DNA of 35,911 bases from Dehalococcoidia bacterium. Its GTDB lineage: Bacteria; Chloroflexota; Dehalococcoidia; GIF9; UBA5629. Of the stretch, positions 31,830 to 34,627 are shown one piece after another. Position numbers and translations under genes: made by a program. The stretch covers positions 1-35,911 of the forward strand of contig JADHXB010000006.1 of the NCBI GenBank assembly GCA_016783155.1, read 5' to 3'. The first letter of the stretch is position 1. Each line of letters opens with the position of its first letter. A model generated the notes under the pieces. It did no database searches. It was given only the letters and a program-made list of their open reading frames with translations, and was not told the DNA's origin.

Positions 31830-32339
31830 ATGTACATTAACGTTGCTCAGTTACTCAAGGAACCAACAGGCTCAAGCCGTAGCTTCCAAATAGACGAGAG
31901 CCTTGGTACGGACGACATAAATTCTGTTAAGGGTGAGGTAACCTTAATCCGCACCAATCGCGGTATCATGGCTAAAGCTGAGATGACAGCAGGCGTGACA
32001 GGAATTTGCAGTCGGTGCCTCAAACCGATTGACTATGATGTAAACTATGACTTTAACGAGGAATGTCTCCCTAGCGTAAGTACTTCCGAAGGTTTATCTT
32101 CACCTGATCAGACCGATAATATTAATATAGACGAGAGCCACATGCTGGACTTAAGCGAAATAATACGCCAATATACCTTGCTGACTATGCCGATCAAGCC
32201 GCTTTGCCGTCCAGACTGTGCTGGAATCTGCCCATCCTGCGGACATAACCTTAATCAAGGCTCCTGCCAATGTCCGTCTCATGCCCACGACCAGCGCTGG
32301 TCCAAACTAATCCACTTGGGGAGGGAAAGTAAAACCTAA
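31830..32339 (+). CDS. yceD: DUF177/YceD family protein
   Basis: 169-residue YceD-family protein, linked in bacteria and plastids to 23S rRNA/large-subunit metabolism. Visible motifs are GICSRCLKPIDYDVNYDFNE (first CxxC), LDLSEIIRQYTLLTMPIKPLC, and the Cys-rich end GICPSCGHNLNQGSCQC, likely a zinc site. The stop abuts the rpmF ATG with no gap, the conserved yceD-rpmF pairing. A strong promoter precedes it. Confidence 0.94.
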   Translation: MYINVAQLLKEPTGSSRSFQIDESLGTDDINSVKGEVTLIRTNRGIMAKAEMTAGVTGICSRCLKPIDYDVNYDFNEECLPSVSTSEGLSSPDQTDNINIDESHMLDLSEIIRQYTLLTMPIKPLCRPDCAGICPSCGHNLNQGSCQCPSHAHDQRWSKLIHLGRESKT

Positions 32340-32540
32340 ATGGCGTTACCGAAGAGAAAATATGCAAAATCACGGCAAGGGAAAAGGCGCAGTCACCTCG
32401 CCCTGAGCATCCCTAAACTGGTTGATTGCCCTCAATGCCATGCTCCCAAATTACCTCATCATGTCTGTCCCACCTGCGGTACCTATGCAGGAAGGGAAGT
32501 GATTAAGACTAAGGCCCCAAAGAAAACACCCGGCCAATGA
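32340..32540 (+). CDS. rpmF: Large ribosomal subunit protein bL32, zinc form
   Basis: 66-residue 50S protein. It begins MALPKRKYAKSRQGKRRSHL and has four zinc Cys (C30, C33, C43, C46) in DCPQCHAPKLPHHVCPTC. It immediately follows yceD. In many bacteria rpmF is followed by plsX-fabH-fabD-fabG-acpP; here plsX, fabH and fabG are missing and a 100 nt gap leads to a degenerate FabD. Confidence 0.97.
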   Translation: MALPKRKYAKSRQGKRRSHLALSIPKLVDCPQCHAPKLPHHVCPTCGTYAGREVIKTKAPKKTPGQ

Positions 32541-32599: not shown

Positions 32600-32647
32600 A
32601 TGATTGCCCCCTTAGTGAACTTGAATTACAAGGAGGAAACATGGTAG
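32600..32647 (+). other. Possible 15-codon upstream reading frame overlapping the FabD-like start
   Basis: ATG at 32600 behind GTGAGG opens a short frame MIAPLVNLNYKEETW that stops at 32645-32647, just past the FabD-like ATG at 32641. Its codons contain the AAGGAGG of the next gene. It could couple translation or be chance; nothing identifies a product. Confidence 0.25.
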
Positions 32648-33585
32648 AAGCAATAAAAGTCGCTTATGTTTTCACCGGACAGGAATCTCATTCTGTAGGC
32701 ATGGGTTTAGACCTTTATGTTCATTACTCTTCAGCCAGGGAAGTTTTCGATGAAGTTGACAAAGCTTTGGGTTTCCCTCTGTCGCATCTATGCTTTGAAG
32801 GCCCTGAAGACGACCTCAAGCAGACCGTCAATGTCCAGCCAGCCGTATTAGCCACAAGCATTGCCTGCCTGAGAGCAGCTCAGGAGGTTAGCAACAATGG
32901 CATACCAGAGCCAACCTTCGTCGCTGGACATGACATGGGCACCTACGCAGCTCTGGTAGCTGCTGGTGCTCTCAGTCTGTCTGATGCCGTGCGCTTGATT
33001 CGCGAGAGAGGACGATTAATGAACGAAGCCGGGCAGAGAACAGCCGGCGGCATGGTATCTATGGCCGGCCTGGATATAGAAGTCTTCAAGAACATCTGCT
33101 TCTCCACAGGTGTTGAGATTGCCTATATAGACGCTCCGGACCAGGTCACCATCAGCGGCACTCAGGAAAGCCTGACCAAAGCCAAGAGGCTAGCGCAGAT
33201 AAAAGGGGCTCGCCGCATTATACCCCTAAGAGTAAGCGGGCCTTTCAATTCCTCGCTTATTGAGCCAGCCATAACAAGATTAAGAAATGCCATTTCCGAG
33301 TTTACCTTCAATAAACCATCAATTCCGGTTGTGGCTAATGCTACTGCCCAGCCGCTTACCGACCTGGAAGCGATAAAGGAGGAGCTGGTTAGCCAGATTG
33401 TCCGCCCAGTTCAATGGCAGCAATCTATTGAAAATATGATCGCCCGAGGAGTAACCACCTTCTTTGAGATGGGGCCTGGTGAGGCACTGACCAAGTTGAT
33501 TAAGCGAATCAGCCCCGGAGCACAGACCTTTAACATCAGCAGCGCTCAAACCATCAGTGAAATAACAAGCTGGCGCAGAGGATAA
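32641..33585 (+). CDS. FabD-like (malonyl-CoA:ACP transacylase fold) protein lacking catalytic Ser and His
   Basis: A 314-residue protein with the full FabD fold: YVFTGQESHSVGMG at the start, VNVQPAVLATSIACLRA, RERGRLMNEAG, VTISGTQESLTKAK, VVANATAQPLTD, VRPVQWQQSIE and FFEMGPGEALTKLI. However the nucleophile elbow GHSxG is AGHDMGTYAAL (D98 for Ser92 of E. coli) and the general-base motif FHS is PFNSSL (N203 for His201). The oxyanion Gln (Q14), substrate Arg (R123) and the QW Gln remain. AAGGAGG precedes the ATG. Normal transacylase chemistry should be impossible; a binding, scaffold or changed-reaction role is inferred. The partner candidate is the ACP-like protein at 34370, which has also lost its active serine. 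Confidence 0.9.
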   Translation: MVEAIKVAYVFTGQESHSVGMGLDLYVHYSSAREVFDEVDKALGFPLSHLCFEGPEDDLKQTVNVQPAVLATSIACLRAAQEVSNNGIPEPTFVAGHDMGTYAALVAAGALSLSDAVRLIRERGRLMNEAGQRTAGGMVSMAGLDIEVFKNICFSTGVEIAYIDAPDQVTISGTQESLTKAKRLAQIKGARRIIPLRVSGPFNSSLIEPAITRLRNAISEFTFNKPSIPVVANATAQPLTDLEAIKEELVSQIVRPVQWQQSIENMIARGVTTFFEMGPGEALTKLIKRISPGAQTFNISSAQTISEITSWRRG

Positions 33586-33597
33586 CAACTGGCACAC

Positions 33598-33903
33598 CAT
33601 AATGTATGGGCTGCGCTTAATCAGATTGTTAGAACTCAGGGTGCGAATAGCCAAGATGCTGAAACGCAGCCCACCCTACAGAACCACTACCACCTGTGAT
33701 AACTGCGTCAAGAAATCCACCTTAATCTCCAATGCCCTCAGCCTATTTATCGATTATATCCGTCACGATTTCCAAAAGGTCGACCCACAATCCAGGAAGC
33801 ACATTGTAAATCAAGGCAATTCTTCAACCTGCCACCACAACCACCCAAGGCAAAAAATGGCGTTACTTGCCATCTATGTCTTGAGGAATTAATATCAGAA
33901 TGA
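33598..33903 (+). pseudogene. Decayed or frameshifted small Cys-containing ORF between FabD-like and nusB
   Basis: The 314 nt between FabD-like and nusB has no intact recognisable gene. One frame is open from an ATG at 33602 to 33892 (96 codons, includes TTCDNCVKKS) but has no Shine-Dalgarno and an odd composition. Another frame is open from 33703, lacks any start codon, and ends at 33901-33903 in a 4 nt ATGA overlap with nusB; it reads NLPPQPPKAKNGVTCHLCLE at the end and carries the GAGGAA that serves nusB. The coding look of that end and the CDNC in the other frame suggest a small zinc-ribbon gene broken by frameshift. Identity unknown. Confidence 0.35.
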
Positions 33904-34352
33904 CTGGATTTAGACGTAAGGCCAGGATTATTGCCCTACAAACATTTTACGAGCTTGACTGTTCTACTCACAAGCCGAAGGAGATTCTGACTCGCTTACT
34001 GAAAGAAAAAGCCCTGCCTGATGAAGCCGCCGATTTTACCAGAAGCCTGGTTAACGGGGTTCTTCAGAACAAGAAGGACATAGATGATGTGATTCAAAGG
34101 TTCGCTCCCTCCTTTCCCGTCAATCAAATAGCCACCATAGACAGAAATATTCTCCGCCTTGCCATTTTTGAGATTTTATTCGATAATAGAGTTCCGGTTA
34201 AAGCGGCTATTAATGAAGCCGTTGAGCTGGCTAAGAGTTTTGGTAGTGATGCTTCTAAAAAATTTATCAACGGGGTTTTGGGTTCAGTAGTTACTGCCTG
34301 TATACAGCAAGGGGAACAACAAAAAGGGATTGAGGGAACTGAGCAAGCCTGA
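33900..34352 (+). CDS. nusB: Transcription antitermination factor NusB
   Basis: 150-residue all-helical NusB: RKARIIALQTFYELDCSTHK, FTRSLVNGVLQNKKDIDDVI, IDRNILRLAIFEILFDNRVP, and AAINEAVELAKSFGSDASKK then FINGVLGSVV. With NusE/S10 it binds boxA in rRNA leader transcripts. A C-terminal Gln/Glu-rich tail (from about 137) is extra. GAGGAA lies 11-12 nt upstream of the ATG, and a decayed frame ends in an ATGA overlap with it. It is followed 17 nt later by the ACP-like gene. Confidence 0.96.
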   Translation: MTGFRRKARIIALQTFYELDCSTHKPKEILTRLLKEKALPDEAADFTRSLVNGVLQNKKDIDDVIQRFAPSFPVNQIATIDRNILRLAIFEILFDNRVPVKAAINEAVELAKSFGSDASKKFINGVLGSVVTACIQQGEQQKGIEGTEQA

Positions 34353-34369: not shown

Positions 34370-34627
34370 ATGGCACTCATTTCAGAAAAGCTTAAGAAAA
34401 TGATTGCGGAGCAACTCGGCGTTGACGAGGAATCAATAGAGCCTTCAGCATCCTTCGTTGACGACCTCAATATTGACCCCCCGGATTTAGCCGAGCTTAT
34501 CACAGCCATCGAACAGGAATTCAGCAGGCCGGGACGAAAGCTGGAGATATCAGACGAAGATACCGATAAAATCGTTACCGTTCAGGACCTCATAGACTGC
34601 CTCCACGACTACGGCATAGAAGACTAA
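34370..34627 (+). CDS. Acyl-carrier-protein-like protein without the phosphopantetheine serine
   Basis: 85-residue ACP fold: EKLKKMIAEQLGVDEESIEP, ASFVDDLN, AELITAIEQEF, and LEISDEDTDKIVTVQDLID are very close to AcpP. The site that takes 4'-phosphopantetheine, normally DSL, is D36-P37-P38 (NIDPPDLAEL), so Ser is Pro and the next Leu is Pro. A ~5-residue insertion (RPGRK) sits before the third helix. AGAGGAAA precedes the ATG. The protein cannot be loaded with an acyl chain at the usual place. Helix II, the surface that docks onto partner enzymes, is otherwise kept. It probably works as an unmodified binding protein or is a slowly decaying copy. It is last in the block and converges with the MFS gene. 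Confidence 0.88.
   Translation: MALISEKLKKMIAEQLGVDEESIEPSASFVDDLNIDPPDLAELITAIEQEFSRPGRKLEISDEDTDKIVTVQDLIDCLHDYGIED

Follow-up and report, generated by a model that had tools for sequence, protein, structure and literature searches.

A conserved FabD/ACP-like pair without catalytic residues in the rpmF-nusB locus of Dehalococcoidia, kept in relatives lacking detectable FAS II

We analysed a stretch of 35,911 nucleotides (contig JADHXB010000006.1, here referred to as the window) from the genome G000, which measures 1.45 Mb, is 77% complete and belongs to an order of the Dehalococcoidia. Habitats from which MAGs of named relatives were obtained include deep lake water, lake sediment and a fen. 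The locus studied here contains, in this order, the genes yceD, rpmF and fabD, the remnant of a radical-SAM gene, nusB and acp (Table 1). The placement of nusB between fabD and acp was the same in all sequenced loci, and a FabD was found in every readable nusB locus of the uncultured family to which the window belongs (f1); in G080 this part of the sequence is masked by N. The neighbourhood of yceD, rpmF and fab genes is a common ancestral arrangement in bacteria (PMC5049393) and therefore does not count as separate evidence for a role in ribosomes.

The alignment of the radical-SAM remnant starts within the 3' end of the window fabD. A spurious ORF at 33602-33892 is included in this remnant. 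An intact radical-SAM gene was found in G055 and G056; G057, like the window, has a decayed remnant.

Table 1. Genes and remnants of the rpmF-nusB locus in the window
Feature	Position	Strand	Basis and remarks
YceD/DUF177 (23S rRNA accumulation protein)	31830..32339	+	PF02620, 96.9 bits
RpmF (ribosomal protein L32)	32340..32540	+	TIGR01031, 82.9 bits; translation
FabD-like pseudoenzyme, 314 aa	32641..33585	+	motifs, profiles, alignment, selection, AlphaFold model
Radical-SAM gene remnant	33551..33889	+	~0.9 kb internally deleted; intact copy of 407 aa in G056
NusB, between fabD and acp	33900..34352	+	TIGR01951, 137.1 bits
ACP-like protein, 85 aa	34370..34627	+	PF00550, motif tables, four-helix model

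The fabD frame was intact over its full length, as an earlier note on this DNA had claimed, and its translation contains the motifs VFTGQESH, AGHDMGT, RERGR, GPFNSS and VRPVQWQ as well as a WRRG motif at the C-terminal end. Catalysis by FabD depends on a Ser-His dyad. At the nucleophile position Ser was replaced by Asp98 (GHDMG for GHSxG, codon 32932-32934) and at the position of the catalytic His an Asn203 was found (FNS for FHS, codon 33247-33249). The GQGSQ motif was altered too, with Gly15 replaced by Glu (codon 32683-32685) and Gln17 by His, while its Gln14 and the malonyl-carboxylate-binding Arg123 were retained. All motifs and retained residues named in the earlier note were found as described, and the loss of the dyad supports its expectation that malonyl transfer should be abolished. 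The changes at positions 15 and 17, the Ser loss in the ACP of the locus and the lack of FAS II in sister genomes, described below, are not mentioned in that note.

The protein scored 282.8 bits over residues 6-291 against the NCBIfam FabD equivalog TIGR00128 (cut-off 260.9) and was also matched by the Pfam family Acyl_transf_1. Since it passes the equivalog cut-off, annotation pipelines will call it an active ACP S-malonyltransferase. The codon of Asp98 (GAC) is two base changes away from any Ser codon. GAC at position 98 and AAT at position 203 were identical in three congeneric assemblies, which excludes a consensus error; together with the loss throughout the clade, these congeners also ruled out an isolated mutation or an assembly error.

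We collected FabDs from the majority of the order's 84 genomes, which gave an alignment of 85 sequences. Ser98 was missing in 22 of these (Gly in 15, Asp in seven), here referred to as dead FabDs, and the remaining 63 carried both Ser and His. Every dead copy was located in the rpmF-nusB locus, 21 of them in f1 genomes and the last in G054, a genome of family f4. The FabD of G064 and a partial copy of G071, both outside the alignment, lacked Ser98 as well. Residue 203 of the dead rows was Tyr (12), Asn (5), His (4) or Ser (1). Gly15 was replaced by Glu or Asp in 21 of the 22 and Gln17 was changed in equally many, whereas Arg123 was kept in all and Gln14 in 21; R192 and K288 were fixed. Frame damage was found in none of the 22, the frames of the sister copies being open as well. 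Among the nearest relatives read outside the order (L140-L142, L144-L147) no dead copy was found, all having GHS and FHS or FHT.

The locus FabD of G054 (L068) reads GHGLGE and FYS, and the adjoining ACP keeps its Ser (DSSEF). The loss of Ser98 in this genome is perhaps parallel to that in f1. By parsimony two losses were counted (the f1 clade and G054), with a single loss not being rejected (AU p 0.33). The very diverged FabDs of family f2 (L050 in G015 and L129 in G014), with the motifs GYSLGE and PPQGPQ and a branch of 1.2, have kept Ser and His.

The distribution of residues at position 98 also bears on a changed catalysis, in which Asp98 would be the nucleophile, like the Asp of haloalkane dehalogenases, an idea raised in the earlier note, or in which the protein would be a hydrolase. 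Seven orthologues indeed carry Asp in the elbow. However, Gly is found there in fifteen others, residue 203 varies without pattern among Tyr, Asn, Ser and His, and the locus holds no hint of a substrate, and we regard this reading as very unlikely.

The second altered protein of the locus is the ACP encoded two genes downstream of the window fabD. Its phosphopantetheine Ser is replaced by Pro37 (codon CCC at 34478-34480, DPPDL for DSLDL), so that the phosphopantetheine arm cannot be carried. The protein scored 39.9 bits against PF00550 (cut-off 20.8) and 65.5 against TIGR00517, below the cut-off of 70.45. Its predicted structure (pLDDT 83.8) has helices at residues 4-16, 37-51, 62-67 and 71-80. 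In the 21 aligned rows of locus ACPs without Ser, the residue was Pro in 19 and Gly and Ala in one each, and D39, E42 and E48 were nearly fixed, leaving the acidic helix II intact. The earlier note had suggested CoA, an acyl chain or ACP as ligands of the dead FabD. The retention of such a partner would favour a role in protein binding, although this partner could not carry the arm. An exception was the locus ACP of G070 (L062, 8499-8765) with an in-frame TAG after DPDDIA, which may be due to an error, to readthrough or to a broken gene.

Across family f1, purifying selection acts on both genes. For the dead FabDs dN/dS ranged from 0.03 to 0.17 (Nei-Gojobori, unsaturated pairs) and for the locus ACPs from 0.04 to 0.17 in most pairs; an omega of 0.46 between the ACPs of G061 and G063 came from very few changes. 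In almost every pair the dead FabDs had a lower dN than NusB and YceD. They were in general more strongly conserved than the ACP and stayed conserved over divergences that saturate dS. In ten genomes that have a live FabD in addition to the dead one, the dead copies were closer to each other in 42 of 45 comparisons, the pairs being non-independent, with a mean identity of 0.68 as compared to 0.58 for the live copies. The dN/dS values and the high conservation support the earlier proposal that the fold is maintained by selection to serve some other function. A recent pseudogene was ruled out by dN/dS and by the slower change relative to the live copies.

A related possibility is that both genes are leftovers of a former FAS II, intact only through recency or their position in the operon. 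The decay of the radical-SAM gene in the window and in G057 demonstrates that genes of this locus can die, and the stop codon in the ACP of G070 would fit as well. Nevertheless, the low dN/dS, the conservation past saturation of dS, the absence of damaged frames and an evolution slower than that of live FabDs make such a relic hardly credible.

FabF, AcpS and a canonical FabD were not found in thirteen sister genomes (G055, G056, G059, G061-G064, G069, G071, G073, G074, G081 and G082), which nevertheless keep the dead FabD/ACP pair. Several of these are nearly complete (G056 96%, G073 98%; G055, G061, G064 and G074 also within 91-98%). FabF was above the cut-off in twelve f1 genomes, each of which also had a FabD with Ser and His. 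In the fourteen genomes with only a dead FabD there was no FabF, just weak thiolase-like matches; for a gene that is in fact there, and with genomes treated as independent, the chance of FabF being hidden in all fourteen by incompleteness alone is ~1e-14. AcpS was likewise found in none of the fourteen except G000. The sole AcpS found in this genome (contig C9, L081, 7673-10633) lies beside an unusual ACP with the motif KSVNF and genes which, named by eye, we take to be a phosphate butyryltransferase and a butyrate kinase; this is not a FAS cluster. As G000 is 77% complete, the absence of FAS II from its own genome rests on the sister genomes.

True FabH was missing from the whole family f1 and is therefore useless as a marker of FAS loss; true AccA was also missing family-wide. 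The presence of FAS was patchy even within genera, with FAS in G057 and none in G055 and G056, and the tree of the FAS-cluster FabDs roughly parallels that of the locus FabDs. Taken together, this makes repeated loss of FAS likelier than transfer.

The earlier note had further proposed a search for a second, canonical FabD in the same genome. In the 77% of the genome at hand there was none, and the sister genomes were divided, nine having one and 13 lacking it. Compensation by a second FabD thus holds in the nine family genomes with live and dead copies together and fails in the 13. The same co-occurrence could be taken to indicate that the dead FabD acts as a prozyme, activating a live FabD or the FAS cluster. 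However, live FabD, FabF and AcpS are all missing from most genomes that carry the dead copy, and the dead copies there are unrelaxed, which renders this role highly improbable.

The loss of FAS II has to be considered also for a ligand sensor, in which the dead FabD would bind malonyl-CoA or another acyl-CoA through Gln14 and Arg123 without turnover and report the acyl-CoA state through the ACP-like partner. The near-complete retention of both residues and the intact overall fold are in line with this. On the other hand, the Glu or Asp at position 15 might occupy the pocket and form a pair with Arg123, the two proteins are retained in genomes without FAS II, and no family member has a true AccA, although another carboxylase could make malonyl-CoA. 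We consider a sensor unlikely.

In the tree, the locus FabDs of families f1, f3 and f4 formed one clade, separate from the FAS-cluster FabDs (support 97/95). Four locus FabDs of the order, those of G083, G076, G077 and G053, still carry Ser and His. We defined 28 dead-typical residues, present in >=90% of the dead set and in <25% of the FAS-cluster and f2 FabDs. The live locus FabDs share 23 (G083), 18 (G076), 20 (G077) and 16 (G053) of them, including Arg133, Arg183, Arg269 and the C-terminal W-R. Many dead-typical residues are hence older than the loss of catalysis. Part of the sharing is simply shared descent. However, as these residues occur in live orthologues and were strictly held after catalysis had been lost, a second role of the locus FabD probably preceded that loss.

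The locus of G083 has a live FabD beside an ACP with Pro, which suggests that the ACP lost its Ser before the FabD did. Based on this, the following order of events may be proposed. A bifunctional FabD and ACP would have been present at the locus until the chemistry passed to a separate FAS cluster equipped with a FabD and an ACP of its own. The locus ACP would then have lost its Ser, a loss shared with G083, followed by the Ser of the locus FabD. Finally, the FAS cluster would have been lost repeatedly with the locus pair staying in place.

The AlphaFold model of the window FabD (pLDDT 93.4) predicts a full FabD fold, with TM-scores of 0.90-0.93 and approximately 36% identity to known FabD structures (E. 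coli 1mla and the FabD-AcpP complex 6u0j). The protein thus has fold, profile (TIGR00128), Gln14, Arg123 and the position in the yceD-rpmF locus in common with FabD; it differs by lacking the Ser-His dyad, by Glu and His at positions 15 and 17 and by a partner ACP that is not chargeable.

Human MCAT is nuclear encoded and also serves fatty-acid metabolism. In a Foldseek comparison the window FabD matched it (8csp chain 8) with TM-scores of 0.86/0.83 and an E-value of 3.1e-27. In the assembly of the small mitoribosomal subunit, MCAT has been described as a factor that sequesters h31 and blocks h42, its FabD fold being used there as a placeholder beyond the role as enzyme (PMC9892005). MCAT in the pre-small-subunit particles (8csp-8css) and the locus protein have the FabD fold in common, but the bacterial protein is not known to touch a ribosome and is not basic. 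The dead FabDs carry the clade-specific basic residues R133, R183, R269 and K285 without an overall basic shift; their mean net charge of -6.8 and pI of 5.3 are like those of live FabDs. There was thus no increase in positive charge that would suit the binding of RNA, which speaks against a direct contact with RNA.

The mitochondrial ACP (mt-ACP) sits on pre-large subunits together with MALSU1 and L0R8F8 (PMC8492066), where its role is structural. With mt-ACP and with bacterial ACP (PF00550, TIGR00517; E. coli AcpP) the locus ACP would share the four-helix fold and the acidic helix II, and it differs from them by the replacement of Ser with Pro, Gly or Ala, the absence of phosphopantetheine and the low TIGR00517 score. 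A further case for comparison is Mycoplasma and JCVI-syn3A, where FAS II is gone and ACP is kept. In these, AcpS charges the ACP and PlsX draws on it (PMC6609329), in contrast to the f1 genomes without FAS, which lack both the ACP Ser and AcpS and have kept FabD too.

We are highly confident that the locus encodes a conserved non-catalytic FabD/ACP pair that is kept in relatives without detectable FAS II. A pair free of catalysis that is kept even there points to some other important job. It seems probable to us that FabD and ACP form a structural or regulatory module, either by direct binding between the two or through a partner shared by both. Binding would occur via the retained fold and the retained acidic and basic surfaces, and, by analogy with FabD:AcpP, R192 and K288 of FabD may contact D39, E42 and E48 of the ACP. 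A combination of basic and acidic residues is the kind expected at a FabD:ACP contact.

Such a module could also be centred on the ACP and act in signalling or as a scaffold outside ribosomes, with a partner accepting apo-ACP (Rel/SpoT or a chromosome-organising complex) and FabD as a stabiliser. The acidic helix II is kept, and in E. coli MukB is stimulated to the same extent by AcpP in its apo and holo forms, SpoT, IscS and SecA being listed as further partners (PMC8602292). Yet the locus is without any linked gene for a partner of this type, and the stronger conservation of the dead FabD relative to the ACP argues that FabD is not a mere accessory. We think this unlikely, though less so than a relic, a prozyme or an Asp nucleophile.

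The precedents of MCAT and mt-ACP together with the yceD/rpmF/nusB locus lead us to put a ribosome-linked module first. That the whole chain holds, including a step in ribosome assembly or translation comparable to that of MCAT and mt-ACP, is offered tentatively, with less than even confidence. It is weakened by the inherited nature of this neighbourhood, by the charge of the dead FabDs, which did not turn basic, by the TAG in the ACP of G070 and by the dead FabD next to a Ser-bearing ACP in G054. More doubtful still is the reading that the pair might be a dedicated catalysis-free module of ribosome biogenesis which outlived fatty-acid synthesis, reflecting an old function that FabD and ACP have outside metabolism. 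If true, it would be the same old function shown by MCAT and mt-ACP in mitochondria, and it may exist in ordinary bacteria, masked by catalysis.

Pseudoenzymes and moonlighting ACPs are already known kinds of proteins. In the open-licence literature searched, with most subscription journals lying outside, neither a FabD pseudoenzyme nor a joint loss in FabD and ACP that was maintained while FAS II disappeared was found to have been described. Non-metabolic roles of FabD and ACP are hard to study as their removal stops fatty-acid synthesis. Here, evolution has kept both proteins without the chemistry, which makes their other roles directly testable and relates the pair to the question why MCAT and ACP are found on mitochondrial ribosomes during assembly.

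As to the membranes of the 13 genomes without FAS, archaeal-type lipids as a replacement were rejected, with no GGGP synthase above the cut-off. PlsX would have no holo-ACP substrate in G055 and G056, as AcpS was not found there. The plsX gene itself is kept in both genomes (L083 in G055), and in G056 it has a PlsY-like neighbour (L082, G056:C3, 7154-8152 and 3318-3944).
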